Source of the DNA: Faecalicoccus sp.
Lineage (GTDB): Bacteria; Bacillota_I; Bacilli_A; Erysipelotrichales; Erysipelotrichaceae
Direction: 5' to 3'
Length of the DNA stretch: 7,257 bases
Assembly (NCBI GenBank): GCA_017941505.1
Contig: JAGAWH010000055.1
Coordinates: 1 to 7,257 of the forward strand
Shown: positions 1,779 to 7,257 of the stretch, in pieces
Layout of the letters: each line of letters opens with the position of its first letter
How positions within the stretch are numbered: the stretch's first letter is position 1
Notes under the pieces: model-generated
Database searches by the model: none
Told to the model about the DNA's origin: nothing
The model's input: the letters and a program-made list of their open reading frames with translations, nothing else
Position numbers and translations under genes: made by a program

Positions 1779-2360
1779 ATGAGTACAATAGAAATTCAGA
1801 AAACCAGTATTACCGATTGTAAGACAGATGTTGTGGTAAATGCAGCCAATGAAAAACTGCTTCACGGAAGCGGTGTATGCGGTTATATATTTGCGGCAGC
1901 CGGACCGGAAAAACTGCAGGCAGCCTGTAACAAGATCGGACATTGCGATACCGGAAATGCCGTTATCACACCGGGATTTAATCTTTCGAAGTTTATCGTT
2001 CATGCGGTCGGTCCGATTTGGAACGGAGGAAAAAGCGGTGAACCGAAACATTTATATAACTGCTACAAATCATCTCTGGATCTGGCTAAGAAAAATGGAT
2101 GTCACTCCATTTCGTTTCCTTTGATTTCATCCGGTATTTTTGGATACCCGGTTGATAATGCCTGGAAAGAAGCGATAAAAAGCGTAAAAGACTGGCTGGA
2201 TGAAAATCCGGACTATGATATGAAGGTCGTATTTGCGATTCTGTCGGATCAAATATTGGAAAAAGGATGCAGGGAAGCACAGACAAATGCCGGAAAGTAT
2301 TACCGGGCCCAATTGACAAGATCCGACTCTATAAAAAAAGGAAGATCCGGCAAATTCTAA
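1779..2360 (+). CDS. Macro-domain protein (ADP-ribose / O-acetyl-ADP-ribose hydrolase family)
   Basis: Macro domains bind ADP-ribose, and MacroD/YmdB-type members hydrolyse O-acetyl-ADP-ribose or remove mono-ADP-ribose from proteins. The single cytoplasmic domain fills about residues 3-175 of 193. Visible motifs are NAAN (21-24), a glycine-rich loop GSGVCGYIFAAAG (30-42), GHCDTGNAVIT (54-64), HAVGPIW (75-81) and the phosphate-loop segment SFPLISSGIFGYP (112-124). In E. coli YmdB and human MacroD the second motif carries an aspartate (GGGGVDGAI) implicated in catalysis; here that position is Cys34 and the following histidine is Phe38. The asparagine corresponding to YmdB Asn25 is kept (Asn24). 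Activity is therefore uncertain: it could be a hydrolase using another mechanism or a binder. The last ~18 residues are a basic, Ser/Lys/Arg-rich tail. The gene stands alone, divergent from comEA, and ends at its own terminator. No sirtuin or ADP-ribosyltransferase partner is visible. Confidence 0.9.
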   Translation: MSTIEIQKTSITDCKTDVVVNAANEKLLHGSGVCGYIFAAAGPEKLQAACNKIGHCDTGNAVITPGFNLSKFIVHAVGPIWNGGKSGEPKHLYNCYKSSLDLAKKNGCHSISFPLISSGIFGYPVDNAWKEAIKSVKDWLDENPDYDMKVVFAILSDQILEKGCREAQTNAGKYYRAQLTRSDSIKKGRSGKF

Positions 2361-3513: not shown

Positions 3514-4008
3514 CTAATTTAAGTCGTCTTTGTTTGCCTGGATGGCATCAATACGAACCTTATAAGGATGCTCAATATGTGTAACTTCTACAACATCCCC
3601 AACACGATGACCGATGATAACACGGGCAAGCGGTGTGATATTGGAAATCTTTCCCTGTAATGGATTGGCTTCAACGGAACCCACAATGGAGAAACGTAAT
3701 TCCTGATCATCCTCAAAGTCATATAGAACAACAGTAGAACCTAATTCCACAACATCGGATTTAGAGCTTTCCTGGATAATAATCGCATGTTTGATCAAAT
3801 CATCTAAGGTTTGAATACGAGCTTCAACCTGAGCCTGATGATCACGTGCTGCATCATAGTCCGCGTTTTCGGACAAGTCACCTTGAGCACGGGCTTCCTG
3901 TAACTCAATAACAACCTGTTCACGAACAACATGGATCAAATTATCTCTTTCTGCAACTAATTTATCGTAACCCTGCTGGGTCATTTCATATTTTTTTGTA
4001 TCTGCCAT
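3514..4008 (-). CDS. greA: Transcription elongation factor GreA
   Basis: GreA enters the secondary channel of backtracked RNA polymerase and stimulates cleavage of the nascent RNA 3' end so that elongation can resume. The protein is 164 residues, close to the usual ~158. An N-terminal antiparallel coiled coil (about 8-80) carries the tip signature ARAQGDLSENADYDAAR (39-55), including the acidic pair D44 and E47 that coordinates catalytic Mg in the RNA polymerase active site. The C-terminal FKBP-like domain (about 84-160) shows ANPLQGKISNITPLA (114-128) and GHRVGDVVEV (133-142). The start is fixed by AAAAAGGAG (4016-4024), 7 nt before ATG 4008. mltG lies 57 bp upstream with no terminator between, but an extended -10 promoter in the gap gives greA independent expression. 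In Bacillus subtilis other genes separate mltG (yrrL) from greA; here they are adjacent. Confidence 0.97.
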   Translation of the reverse strand: MADTKKYEMTQQGYDKLVAERDNLIHVVREQVVIELQEARAQGDLSENADYDAARDHQAQVEARIQTLDDLIKHAIIIQESSKSDVVELGSTVVLYDFEDDQELRFSIVGSVEANPLQGKISNITPLARVIIGHRVGDVVEVTHIEHPYKVRIDAIQANKDDLN

Positions 4009-4033
4009 GAAAACACTCCTTTTTGCATTCGCA

Positions 4034-4061
4034 ATTATAACATGAAAAACAAATTATTCAA
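4034..4061 (-). promoter_or_regulatory. Extended -10 promoter driving greA
   Basis: On the minus strand TTGAAT (4061-4056, four of six consensus bases) is followed after 16 bp by a perfect TATAAT (4039-4034), preceded by TGT to give the extended -10 form TGnTATAAT. Initiation would fall near 4027, just ahead of the greA ribosome binding site. Transcripts from mltG should also read through. Confidence 0.75.
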
Positions 4062-4065
4062 TCAT

Positions 4066-5325
4066 TTATTCTTCAGTTGTTTCTTCCTGTGGCACCTCTT
4101 CCGAAGGTGCTTCTGTTGTGGAACCATCATCCATCACAAGACCGAGTTCGGCCATCATTGCCTGATGTTCTTCATAAGTCTTGGAATAATGAACTAAGCC
4201 ATCCTTGCGGTTGTAAATATCAGCTACGAAGAATAAGTATTCATTGTTGTCAGGCTGCAATACCGCCACAAGTGCATCTTCACCCGGATTCAAAATCGGT
4301 CCGATCGGTAATCCGGTGTGCATATAGGTGTTATATGGTGAGTCGATTTCCGCATTGGTTTCACAATCTTCCGGATCATCAAATTCATCATATAATGCGT
4401 AACATACCGTTACACTGGATTGTAACATCATATCCTGGTTTAAACGGTTATAGAATACACCGGCAATTTTACGCATGTCGGTATAGTTACCTGCCTCAAA
4501 TTGAACAACACTGGCAAGCGTAACAAGTTCATGAACCGTATATTGCGATTTATCAAAATAATCCTGATATTCCTGATAAACGTTATTAAACTGCGTTAAG
4601 AATGTTCTTGTGATCTCATCAATCGATGCATTGGTGTAGAACTGATATGTTTCCGGGAATAAGTATCCTTCTAACTTCACATGGTATTGATCATTGTTCA
4701 AATCATCCGGATTGATAAATGAGTATGTCTGTGAAAGTTCTTTAATATATTCCGGATCATTCCATAATTCAATGAACTCTTCAGCCTTATATGGGAAGTT
4801 TTCTGCCAGAATTTCCGCTGTTTCCTTCGCCCATTTTCCTTCCGGGAAGGTTATAACGATGGTATCGATAATCGCATTATTCTGGTTTCCTATATAAGCT
4901 AACACCTGCTGCGTGGTCATACCGTTGTTTAATTCAAAGGTACCTGCATAGTATTGGCCGCTTCCAAAGAATTTTGTATACAGCTTCGCGGTATTGGCAT
5001 CTTTGATTAAGCCTTTCTTTTGCAGCATCGCAAGAACAGAATCATAAGATTGACCGGATTCAATTTCAATGGTCACAACTTTTGTTCCATCTCCTACCGG
5101 TTCTAAATCTGTCTTGTATTTATACAATCCAAACAAAACACCGCCTACAAGCAGAATCGGAATCAAAGCCACCACAAATCTCAAAAATGGATTCGATTTT
5201 TTCTGCTGCTGTTTTTTCTTTGGAACTGTACGCGTTTTTCTTCTTCTTTTCTCAACAGGACGAAGAACGATCTGACTGGTATCAATGGTCTGATCATATA
5301 CCGGTGCAGCCGGTGCTACAGCCAT
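4066..5325 (-). CDS. mltG: Endolytic transglycosylase MltG (YceG-like), from first intact start after an in-frame stop
   Basis: MltG cuts nascent peptidoglycan strands next to the membrane and is thought to set glycan chain length. In this 419-residue reading a basic tail (1-46, with RRRK and KKK clusters) precedes one helix (about 47-68), then the extracellular part: a LysM-like region (about 80-150) and the YceG catalytic domain. Visible hallmarks are EGYLFPETYQF (219-229), LASVVQFEAG (270-279) with Glu277 at the place of catalytic Glu218 of E. coli, FYNRL (291-295), SPYNTYMHTGLPIGPILNPG (329-348) and YLFFVAD (363-369). The last ~20 residues are acidic and Thr/Glu-rich. The E. coli EKE motif reads QFE, but the catalytic second glutamate is kept. 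ATG 5325 has no Shine-Dalgarno sequence. The natural start is almost certainly 5670, where the frame continues with a long basic tail, but TAA at 5575-5577 interrupts it. Whether full-length MltG is made is uncertain. Confidence 0.88.
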   Translation of the reverse strand: MAVAPAAPVYDQTIDTSQIVLRPVEKRRRKTRTVPKKKQQQKKSNPFLRFVVALIPILLVGGVLFGLYKYKTDLEPVGDGTKVVTIEIESGQSYDSVLAMLQKKGLIKDANTAKLYTKFFGSGQYYAGTFELNNGMTTQQVLAYIGNQNNAIIDTIVITFPEGKWAKETAEILAENFPYKAEEFIELWNDPEYIKELSQTYSFINPDDLNNDQYHVKLEGYLFPETYQFYTNASIDEITRTFLTQFNNVYQEYQDYFDKSQYTVHELVTLASVVQFEAGNYTDMRKIAGVFYNRLNQDMMLQSSVTVCYALYDEFDDPEDCETNAEIDSPYNTYMHTGLPIGPILNPGEDALVAVLQPDNNEYLFFVADIYNRKDGLVHYSKTYEEHQAMMAELGLVMDDGSTTEAPSEEVPQEETTEE

Positions 5326-5670
5326 TTGTCTTGGTGCTGTATTTTGCGGACGTCTTTGTGCCGTATTCGATGGCCGTCTTCTCTTAGTTGAAGATCTTGA
5401 TTGAGAAGCCGGACGCTTTCTTTTTACAGATTGACTCTGACTTGATTCCGGACGTCTTTTTTTAGCACTGCTCGAACCGGAAGGACGTCTTTTTCGCTGC
5501 TGGTTGACCTGAGCGCGTCTTGTTTCTAAAGAATCCGGACGCTGCGCAGCCGGTCTTTTTCTTTTCTTCGCTGTTTATGTATTCGCCGAGGAAGCAGGCC
5601 TTCTCTTCTTTTGTGCTGTCTGCTGGGAGGATGGCCGCTTTTTTCTTGGCTGGGCTGTATTACTCGGCAT
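5326..5670 (-). pseudogene. Disrupted 5' end of mltG: basic tail interrupted by TAA
   Basis: This stretch is in frame with mltG and encodes its N-terminal cytoplasmic extension. Translation would start at ATG 5670, 9 nt after AGGAG (5680-5684) and overlapping the last 11 nt of the DUF1292 gene; ATG 5679 is also in frame but directly abuts the AGGAG. After 31 codons the frame meets TAA (5577-5575), then continues open for 83 codons into ATG 5325 with no ATG, GTG or TTG between. Residue composition is the same on both sides of the stop (Lys, Arg, Pro, Ser, Gln, Thr, Ala), so no frameshift is needed: one base change (for example CAA to TAA, C to T on the minus strand) explains it. Without the stop the protein would be 534 residues with a cytoplasmic tail of about 160. 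Long disordered cytoplasmic tails are known in streptococcal MltG. A strain mutation and a sequence error cannot be told apart here. Confidence 0.8.
5347..5643 (-). repeat. Degenerate basic-proline repeats in the MltG tail
   Basis: Counting residues from ATG 5670, clusters of 2-5 Lys/Arg followed by Pro occur at 10-13, 21-25, 35-40, 59-63, 70-74, 83-87, 96-100 and 106-108. The proline spacing is mostly 11-15 residues, with linkers of Ser, Gln, Thr and Ala. At DNA level each unit shows a CGT-CCG-like core after an A-rich AAAAGA stretch (minus strand). Units are imperfect, so this is an old or selected repeat rather than a recent tandem expansion. Confidence 0.75.
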
Positions 5671-5917
5671 CCTCTTCATCTCCTAAAAATGTATTGATGA
5701 CTTCTTCTACCATATCCCATTCTTCGTCAGACTCAATAGGGATCAATCTGCCATCATCTGTGTAAGCACTGGCCATTACTTCACTTTGATCTCCTTCAGG
5801 GTCCTGATAAACGACATATTGTTTCTTAGTTTCGTCATTGTCGAATGTAAACAAAATTGTCATTCGTTTTTCGTTTCCATTCTCATCAGTAACATACATT
5901 GAATTCGAATCCATCAT
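5660..5917 (-). CDS. DUF1292 family protein (YrzB-like)
   Basis: This small acidic protein belongs to the DUF1292/YrzB family, found almost always between ruvX (yrrK) and mltG (yrrL) in Bacillota; its biochemical role is unknown to me. It has 85 residues from ATG 5917. The family pattern is visible: a strand-rich core with ILFTFDNDETKKQYVVYQD, then EVMASAYTDDGRLIPIESDEEWDMVEEVINTF and an acidic C-terminus. An in-frame ATG at 5926 touches AAAGG directly and is unlikely to be used. ATG 5917 lies 8 nt after AAAGGA and is preferred; ATG 5914 is also possible. A hairpin with a T-run lies between ruvX and this gene. Its last 11 nt overlap the original mltG start, and AGGAG inside its coding sequence serves mltG, implying coupled translation. 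Confidence 0.9.
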   Translation of the reverse strand: MMDSNSMYVTDENGNEKRMTILFTFDNDETKKQYVVYQDPEGDQSEVMASAYTDDGRLIPIESDEEWDMVEEVINTFLGDEEDAE

Positions 5918-5934
5918 AATAATCATCCTTTCGT

Positions 5935-5962
5935 AAAAACAGGGGAATTTATCCGATTCCCC
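5935..5962 (-). terminator. Terminator-like hairpin (possible attenuator) between ruvX and DUF1292
   Basis: On the minus strand GGGGAAT (5962-5956) pairs with ATTCCCC (5948-5942) around a 7-nt loop, followed by TG and five T (5939-5935). The ruvX stop codon (5951-5949) lies in the loop. The stem is short but has four consecutive G-C pairs. Since DUF1292, mltG and greA follow, it is more likely partial termination or an mRNA end stabiliser than a full stop. Confidence 0.6.
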
Positions 5963-6380
5963 CGTTTAACTTGTCTAAATAGCCCTGCAAAATTTCAACT
6001 GCAGCCATTTGGTCAATGACTTTTTTACGCTTTTTTCGGGAAACATCACCCTCTAAAAGATAGCGGGTAGCACTTACGGTTGTAAGACGCTCATCCCACA
6101 GGGTAACGTTATATCCTTCTTTAGTAAGCTCATCAGCAAAATCAATCGATAACTGACCTCTTTCACCGATATCTCCATTCATATGTTTTGGCAGCCCCAA
6201 TACGATATCTTTGATCTTTTCCGATTCCAATAATTCCAACAATTGGTCGAAGCAGTCATCGTAATCATCCGACGGAAATCGAATCGTAGTAAGGGCTCTG
6301 GCTACAAGTCTGCCCTGGTCGCTGATCGCAACACCGCAGGTCTTGGAGCCCAGATCTAATCCGATTATTCTATTCTGCAT
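5949..6380 (-). CDS. ruvX: RuvX/YqgF, RNase H-fold nuclease for pre-16S rRNA processing
   Basis: YqgF/RuvX proteins have the RuvC/RNase H fold. They were named as putative Holliday junction resolvases; work in E. coli links YqgF to maturation of the 16S rRNA 5' end. The 143-residue protein has the usual length. Visible motifs are IGLDLGSKTCGVAISD (6-21) with metal-binding Asp9, LGLPKHMNGDIGERG (61-75), WDERLTT (95-101) with Glu97, and IDQMAAVEILQGYL (122-135) with Asp123, so the acidic active-site set is intact. A basic stretch SRKKRKK (114-120) precedes the last motif, as is common in the family. Its ATG shares one base with the ireB stop (TAATG), and no good Shine-Dalgarno sequence precedes it, so translation is probably coupled to ireB. 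A terminator-like hairpin overlaps its stop codon. Confidence 0.96.
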   Translation of the reverse strand: MQNRIIGLDLGSKTCGVAISDQGRLVARALTTIRFPSDDYDDCFDQLLELLESEKIKDIVLGLPKHMNGDIGERGQLSIDFADELTKEGYNVTLWDERLTTVSATRYLLEGDVSRKKRKKVIDQMAAVEILQGYLDKLNGGIG

Positions 6381-6631
6381 TATTTTTCTAAATATGCACG
6401 AACCAATTCTTCGATGATTTCGTAACGTTCGATTCTCTGAATCAGATTACGGGCATTCTTATGAGAAGAAATATATGCAGGATCATTGCTGATAATATAT
6501 CCGGCAATCTGATTGACCGAATTATATCCTCTTTCATCCAATGCATTGCTAACCTCTTTTAAGATTGCCTTGATATTCTCACGGCGAATTTCTTCGGTAG
6601 TAAATGTCATTGTTTCCGTAATGTCTCTCAT
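6380..6631 (-). CDS. ireB: IreB/ReoM family regulator (UPF0297, YrzL)
   Basis: IreB (Enterococcus) / ReoM (Listeria) is a small substrate of the PASTA-domain Ser/Thr kinase IreK/PrkA. In Listeria, ReoM controls ClpCP degradation of MurA and so peptidoglycan precursor synthesis. The 83-residue protein matches the family along its length: ALDERGYNSVNQIAGYIISNDPAYI (30-54), HKNARNLIQRIERYEIIEELVRAYL (57-81). Thr7, the ReoM phosphorylation position, is kept in the context ETM, and Thr5 is a second candidate. The usual GDPAYIPRH reads NDPAYISSH (49-57), so a normally conserved Pro-Arg pair is replaced by two serines; Arg61, Arg66 and Arg69 remain. AAGGAGGGTGA (6636-6646) fixes the start. A TATAAT box lies just upstream, so this gene can be expressed independently of alaS. 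The kinase gene is not in the window. Confidence 0.95.
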   Translation of the reverse strand: MRDITETMTFTTEEIRRENIKAILKEVSNALDERGYNSVNQIAGYIISNDPAYISSHKNARNLIQRIERYEIIEELVRAYLEK

Positions 6632-6635
6632 AGTA

Positions 6636-6646
6636 TCACCCTCCTT
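6636..6646 (-). promoter_or_regulatory. Strong ribosome binding site of ireB
   Basis: AAGGAGGGTGA on the minus strand is a near-complete complement to the 16S rRNA 3' end; AAGGAGG lies 8 nt before ATG 6631. It supports the start that places threonine at residue 7. Confidence 0.85.
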
Positions 6647-6657
6647 GACATAAAACT

Positions 6658-6686
6658 ATTATACATGAAAGCGATGAAAAATAAAA
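6658..6686 (-). promoter_or_regulatory. Candidate promoter of the ireB-ruvX-DUF1292-mltG cluster
   Basis: A perfect TATAAT (6663-6658, minus strand) lies just ahead of the ireB ribosome binding site. The hexamer 17 bp upstream (TTTTAT, 6686-6681) is a poor -35. That hexamer and the spacer overlap the loop and descending arm of the alaS hairpin. Without a good -35, activity may be weak or need an activator. Confidence 0.5.
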
Positions 6687-6699
6687 TGTTTTCATCGCT
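6668..6699 (-). terminator. Hairpin terminator after alaS
   Basis: On the minus strand AGCGATGAAAA (6699-6689) pairs perfectly with TTTTCATCGCT (6680-6670) around an 8-nt loop. Only two more T follow before a C, so the T-tract is poor and termination may be partial. It begins 7 nt after the alaS stop. Confidence 0.65.
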
Positions 6700-6706
6700 C
6701 ATGGTT

Positions 6707-7257
6707 TTAAATATTCGTTAATTGTGAACGGATTTCATCCATAGCTTCATTGAGCTTGGATACATCCTTACCGCCGGCCTGGGCCATATCCGGTTTTCCA
6801 CCGCCGTTACCCTGGCAGATCTGGGCAGCTTTCTTAACCAGATTTCCGGCATGTACACCTTTTTTCACGGCATCCTTACCGGCACCGGCTACAAAGACAA
6901 CCTTATCGTTGTTTACATTCGCAAAGAAACATACCACATTTGGATTCTGTGCCTTTAAGTTAGAAACGATATCTTTCAGTGCACCGGCATCCATACCTTC
7001 GGTCTTACGAATTAAGGCATCAACGTTTCCTAATGTCTTTACATCATTTGTCCATTCCTTAGCCTTCAGGGCAAAGATCTGGTTTTTCAGGTTATCGATT
7101 TCCTTCTGCATGGACTTCATCTGATCATAAGCAGAAGCAACTTTGTTGTCGATTCCCTTCAGACCCTTGGCTTTTGCACTTTCGGCAATATTTTCTAACA
7201 TAGCCTGCTGCTTAGCAGTTTCCTGGTAAGCTGCATAACCTGTCTTGGCAGTGATAC
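6707..7257 (-). CDS. alaS: Alanyl-tRNA synthetase, C-terminal 182 residues (runs off right edge)
   Basis: AlaRS charges tRNA-Ala with alanine in the cytoplasm. Only the C-terminal part is in the window; the frame stays open to the right edge, and an ATG at 7201 is internal rather than a start. The visible part begins ITAKTGYAAYQETAKQQAML, which corresponds to the linker after the editing domain (family RIEAVTGxxA). A coiled coil follows (about 30-70 of the visible part), then the C-Ala/DHHA1 domain with VSNLKAQNPNVVCFF, HAGNLVKKAAQIC and the glycine-rich GNGGGKPDMAQAGGKD that is diagnostic for the family. The catalytic and editing domains lie outside the window. The order alaS-ireB-ruvX-DUF1292-mltG is conserved in many Bacillota. 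It ends at a hairpin with a short T-tract. Confidence 0.97.
   Translation of the reverse strand, partial: ITAKTGYAAYQETAKQQAMLENIAESAKAKGLKGIDNKVASAYDQMKSMQKEIDNLKNQIFALKAKEWTNDVKTLGNVDALIRKTEGMDAGALKDIVSNLKAQNPNVVCFFANVNNDKVVFVAGAGKDAVKKGVHAGNLVKKAAQICQGNGGGKPDMAQAGGKDVSKLNEAMDEIRSQLTNI

Follow-up and report, generated by a model that had tools for sequence, protein, structure and literature searches.

Among tailed MltG proteins, that of E. faecalis is the closest described system to the locus considered here. Its extended segment on the cytoplasmic side, predicted to be disordered, is a phosphorylation target of IreK, for which T20 is required, and according to the authors such a segment is present in a few MltG homologs (PMC12369325, available text). 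Removal of mltG from E. faecalis results in poor growth, impaired integrity of the wall and higher resistance to cephalosporins, and the enzyme activity of MltG is dispensable for wall homeostasis in this species (PMC12288455, available text). Within the available texts of the literature on MltG cytoplasmic domains, Erysipelotrichaceae MltG and premature stops, nothing was found on the N-terminal tail described below.

The window is the whole stretch of DNA that was analysed, 7,257 nucleotides from an Erysipelotrichaceae-type bacterium. On its minus strand it carries, in this order, the end of alaS, ireB, ruvX, a DUF1292 gene, mltG, greA, a zinc-ribbon gene, a 172-aa gene, a comEA-like gene and the start of a long protein. 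It was compared with a sister locus (L001) in the metagenome genome RUG11795 (the sister genome, G001), one of 2 distinct loci found when genome contigs were scanned for the window, and with two related proteins, P0001 and P0002. The features needed here are the following.

5680..5684, minus strand: AGGAG ribosome site of ATG 5670 (sequence; duplex energy -9.4 kcal/mol)
5578..5670, minus strand: mltG N-terminal tail before the stop, 31 codons, basic and of low complexity (frame reading; L001 comparison)
5575..5577, minus strand: in-frame TAA; sense codon in L001, tails unbroken in P0001 and P0002 (frame reading, relatives)
5326..5574, minus strand: remaining tail, 83 codons without an in-frame start, still coding-like (start-codon scan; L001 comparison)
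4066..5325, minus strand: mltG from ATG 5325, with a short basic segment, a membrane helix (read from the sequence) and an intact YceG/MltG domain (PF02618, TIGR00247, 4iiw)
5660..5926, minus strand: DUF1292 gene, sharing 11 bases with the start of mltG (PF06949)
5949..6380, minus strand: ruvX (PF03652, TIGR00250)
6380..6631, minus strand: ireB (PF06135, NF003997)
3514..4008, minus strand: greA (NF001263, above cut-off)
1779-2360, plus strand: macro-domain gene, between the 172-aa gene and the comEA-like gene and on the opposite strand to both

The catalytic part of mltG at 4066-5325 is, by its domain matches, complete. It passes both the Pfam YceG cut-off (PF02618, E 2.7e-76, 257.1 bits against a gathering score of 32.4) and that of the NCBIfam MltG model (TIGR00247, 211.3 bits against 103.4), and it matches the solved relative 4iiw, the Lmo1499 protein, with E 2.3e-52. 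As regards a conserved catalytic glutamate, the VVQFEAG motif places its E opposite the second E of IIEKEA in 4iiw and of IIEKET in 2r1f, there being two candidate E residues in each of these relatives. Endolytic transglycosylase activity on nascent peptidoglycan is predicted from the domain. As for the neighbours, the alaS piece contains a DHHA1 domain and gives a partial match to the alaS model that scores under the cut-off, which is what a fragment should give, and the name comEA-like is our reading of a gene with SLBB and helix-hairpin-helix domains. No family match was obtained for the 172-aa gene or for the long protein of which the window holds the start. Seven terminator-like sites occur in 3900-7257, where 2.6 would be expected; terminator-like hairpins on the plus strand include 6670-6699 in the gap between alaS and ireB (11 pairs) and 5942-5962 between ruvX and DUF1292 (8 pairs).

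A first-pass annotation of this DNA had described an mltG frame that starts at ATG 5670 behind an AGGAG, overlaps the upstream gene, and is cut by one TAA after 31 codons. Frame reading agrees with this in every coordinate: the minus-strand frame 5670-4066 has a single internal stop, at codon 32, the AGGAG is spaced nine bases from the ATG, and the 11 overlapping bases belong to the DUF1292 gene. Past the TAA the frame stays open through ATG 5325 into the YceG/MltG domain. The annotation also held that the 83 sense codons between the stop and ATG 5325 are free of start codons, which was borne out for ATG, GTG, TTG and CTG as well as for ATT, ATC and ATA. Another in-frame ATG, at 5679, lies upstream of ATG 5670 and opens the listed sister (L001) ORF; its ribosome site is weak (-1.8). 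The composition of the tail had been called the same on both sides of the stop, and it is indeed alike, with a pI of 12.0 for each part and an abundance of K, R, S, Q and P. A run of Tandem Repeats Finder over the window yielded no repeat array.

L001 is 97.2% identical to the window over 7,260 aligned columns, has a sense codon at the position of the TAA, and encodes an uninterrupted frame of 537 aa. What separates the two loci at this codon is a substitution, with no gap anywhere in the aligned frame, which upholds the earlier view that the stop arose as a point nonsense change and not through a frameshift. The gaps between window and L001 are intergenic, at about 2366-2376 and 3508, with zero in mltG and no intragenic indel in the rest of the genes, of which 8 are complete and 2 run off the ends of the window. 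It is worth noting that a pair of frameshifts is excluded by the gap-free one-frame alignment and not by closed alternative frames: neither of the other two minus frames is open across the whole tail, and both are locally open over the TAA (about 5675-5529 and 5659-5465). The tails of P0001 (542 aa, a cluster of 10 sequences, with 98% identity to the 419-aa part) and P0002 (553 aa, 88% identical to the same part) are also unbroken. A long N-terminal segment ahead of the membrane helix within one open frame is thus present in L001, P0001 and P0002, and in the window it is interrupted by the TAA.

The pattern of differences between the window and L001 shows whether the tail has evolved as protein. 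In the part before the stop, 27 codons could be compared, with 8 synonymous and 2 nonsynonymous changes (dN/dS 0.085; p = 5e-4), and after the stop there are 20 synonymous and 7 nonsynonymous changes (dN/dS 0.111; p = 6e-8). From the membrane helix onward mltG has 34 and 7, respectively (p = 2e-17), and the segment from ATG 5325 to the helix has 1 synonymous and 3 nonsynonymous changes (p = 0.65), too few to judge. All p values refer to nonsynonymous changes being fewer than the neutral expectation from computed site numbers. Judged by these substitutions, both the part of the tail ahead of the stop and the part after it are coding sequence. Had the post-stop tail decayed neutrally along the whole window branch, about 30 nonsynonymous changes would be expected, a rough figure that assumes about half of the 20 synonymous changes to lie on that branch; 7 are seen, with both branches summed. 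For this reason the stop would, on a rough inference, be young on the window branch, or ineffective, or not real. Synonymous divergence from L001 is uneven: in the tail (5326-5658) it is 20/59.8 and 8/20.5 sites for the two parts, about double the 34/230.7 from the helix onward, and it is low in ruvX (6/95.2) and ireB (3/51.0) and raised in the alaS end (22/116.7). This unevenness across tail and neighbours may reflect recombination.

The reading preferred here, with a probability of roughly one half, is that the TAA at 5575-5577 is a recent and ordinary nonsense allele in a tailed mltG. Sites at which a single transition gives a stop are about twice as frequent in the tail (15 in 114 codons) as in the rest of mltG (28 in 419); when all single substitutions to a stop are counted, 54 in 114 codons against 207 in 419, the tail has no excess. 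This reading has to reckon with the possibility that the base is wrong, and with a tail in which selection is not visibly relaxed, as it should be after an old loss. A sequencing or assembly error is a possible though less favoured explanation; the gene would then really have a sense codon here, like its relatives, and MltG would be produced as usual. It is in keeping with a single base in a single record, a tail equally constrained on either side of the stop, other window genes free of disturbing indels, and unbroken frames in all three tailed relatives. Against it, six conserved neighbours have a sum of 5 nonsynonymous differences from L001 (greA 1, ruvX 1, ireB 0, macro-domain gene 0, DUF1292 1, alaS end 2), which gives no obvious sign of an error-rich assembly, although as a bound on the error rate it is loose. 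The remaining counts are 2 in comEA, 3 in the zinc-ribbon gene, 4 in the 172-aa ORF, 10 in the 398-aa part of the membrane protein and 10 in mltG from ATG 5325. The macro-domain gene has 2 synonymous differences from L001 beside its 0 nonsynonymous ones.

It is doubtful that the lineage has shed its tail and makes a functional tail-free MltG of 419 aa from ATG 5325. Such a protein would retain the catalytic domain together with the membrane helix and basic segment that precede it, and would resemble the frames of 347-426 aa in relatives, and the 22 bases ahead of ATG 5325 are A-rich. The duplex energy of the ribosome site there is, however, just -0.5 kcal/mol, in line with the earlier statement that this ATG has no Shine-Dalgarno sequence, and 88.7% of 194 scored minus-strand ATGs have a site at least as good. 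ATG 5325 is also not a conserved start, the position being GTG in L001 and Val in P0001. Among L001, P0001 and P0002 no tail-free protein starting at the position of 5325 was found, and distant relatives do have short MltGs. Promoter-like sites in 3900-7257 number 6, with 8.9 expected by chance, and none lies between the stop and ATG 5325. Folding around ATG 5325 is no better than in shuffled sequences (z -0.62). For ordinary reinitiation, 83 start-free codons are a long way.

Read-through of the TAA, by a suppressor tRNA or through its context, would yield full-length MltG or two forms of it, and is considered very unlikely. Selection on the post-stop tail is apparently undiminished, as read-through would have it, but a recent stop accounts for this equally well. 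Of the ten genes whose ends fall within the window, seven terminate with TAA (macro-domain gene, 172-aa ORF, DUF1292, ruvX, ireB, alaS and mltG). A changed genetic code was rejected on the same ground. Neither a conserved in-frame stop nor an altered use of TAA was seen, and the three tailed relatives have no stop at which a recoding site could be conserved. No structured element was found at or after the stop (z +1.21, with 181 of 200 shuffles folding at least as well), Rfam gave no match above gathering score, and there are no tRNA genes within the window. The first-pass annotation had listed three outcomes, namely an MltG that is lost or poorly made, a suppressed stop, or a wrong base; the list stands, with suppression having gained no positive support. 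Least probable of all is that the stop works as a switch, where a low level of read-through would give a tailed, kinase-responsive MltG and the weak start at ATG 5325 a tail-free form. If it did, the organism would tune the share of its MltG that is under PASTA-kinase control, with a second MltG supplying basic activity.

How widespread is the tail? An MltG match was present in 59 of the 60 genomes searched (G001 and 59 relatives). The open frame of the tailed copy in G001 has 538 aa, and the frames at the 58 matches elsewhere range over 347-426 aa. When P0001 residues 1-180 were searched against the protein database, two proteins were returned among 1315 candidates, P0001 itself and P0002; this search reaches only proteins of similar length that share short words with the query. 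Within the searches made, the long basic tail was thus found only in a small lineage. P0001 has one more RRPSNSAQ unit in its tail than L001 (compare window 5326-5450), and from this comparison the length of the tail appears to be evolving through gain and loss of RRPSNSAQ-like units among close relatives. Organisms named among the best 120 MltG matches are Floccifex, Ileibacterium, Faecalibaculum and an unclassified Bacillota. There was no match in the plasmid collection, and 22 pattern matches in viral contigs included zero relatives. Internal stops were flagged in 9 of the 60 mltG matches of relatives, and none was judged comparable to the window TAA. In eight of the nine the stops lie in the first 12 codons of the match, probably ahead of the true gene start (one of these also has a terminal stop), and in the ninth they are confined to the last 8 codons.

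G001 contains a second mltG, a tail-free ORF of 367 aa with a YceG domain that is 60% identical to P0001 over residues 182-532. It lies on another contig than L001 (L005, 1453-2556; L038, 7387-8490) and is flanked by a tyrosine-phosphatase-family gene and a Na+/H+-antiporter-family gene. G001 is the only one of the 59 matching genomes with two MltG matches, none of the other 58 having a second. For 29 of these 58 the mltG neighbourhood was examined (28 loci, L006-L033, and Holdemanella biformis, L002/L004), and in each case mltG is near at least two of alaS, ireB, ruvX, DUF1292, greA and comEA; with this standard setting in all 29, the second copy in G001 is the odd one out. It could be contamination or misbinning in one draft metagenome genome. 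The single matches for ireB and ruvX in G001, and one full-length alaS besides two partial matches below cut-off, argue against a wholly mixed bin. Of 17 stretches taken for a comparison of tetranucleotide frequencies, five were without any G or C (read as N) and four others under 6 kb (0.51-0.88) were kept outside the mean. The second-mltG contig has a correlation of 0.928 with the mean of seven other G001 contigs above 6 kb, which themselves reach 0.80-0.97 against a mean that includes them, and of 0.852 with L001, where the seven reach 0.756-0.930; this fits one genome, weakly. P0003 is identical to the second copy in 364 of 367 residues. A tree was built from 38 rows, namely the window together with 20 proteins out of the 120 listed and 17 loci out of the 31 in L003-L033; support is good for 15 of its 35 inner branches. 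Fourteen loci lacking the motif fit are omitted, including L005 with the second copy, for which P0003 stands in. P0003 and P0004 adjoin the tailed clade with weak support (82/67), and the second mltG is likely a lineage-specific duplication.

If the TAA is a recent nonsense allele and the base is true, a single-base mutation in the long low-complexity tail would halt ribosomes from ATG 5670 after 31 codons, so that the tailed MltG would not be made. The tail-free form from ATG 5325 would be made weakly at best. Little or no protein would then come from this gene, and MltG from the window copy is probably missing or scarce because ATG 5325 is without a ribosome site and unconserved. A second, tail-free MltG of the kind in G001 may make the loss tolerable; with two copies in that genome, losing the tailed one need not abolish MltG activity. 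The organism of the window may also carry a second copy, in which case losing the first need not be costly. This part of the nonsense-allele reading leans on a copy known from one draft metagenome genome, on a contig that is possibly misbinned. The earlier suggestion that loss could change envelope behaviour is weakened by the second mltG in G001; the growth and wall defects on mltG deletion in E. faecalis, in the available text, support loss mattering where a second copy is absent.

The stop alone is one nonsense allele, and its setting is what makes it mildly useful. The lineage apparently has two mltG genes, one of them with a long basic, repeat-expanding tail and clustered with ireB, and would offer a natural comparison of tailed and tail-free MltG, including whether the tail is dispensable. 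According to the available text, the function of MltG tails has only recently been probed, in E. faecalis (PMC12369325). Compared with MltG in general (YceG, PF02618, TIGR00247), the window protein has the same catalytic domain, passing both family cut-offs, and the gene order of the relatives examined. It differs in its long basic tail and in a tail frame that is broken near its start. The window gene, by its frame and domains, is a new example of a tailed MltG. Like E. faecalis MltG as described in the available text (PMC12369325), it has an extended N-terminal segment before the membrane helix, which is presumably cytoplasmic here too. The first-pass annotation had placed mltG next to a PASTA-kinase regulator gene; ireB is in the same cluster and is the only member of that pathway recognised in the window, but it stands three genes upstream of mltG, separated from it by ruvX and DUF1292. 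The E. faecalis segment is predicted to be disordered, and the window tail, as read from its sequence, is of low complexity and contains Ser and Thr. The likeness is one of description, and the strongly basic character of the window tail (pI 12.0) sets it apart from the E. faecalis segment.
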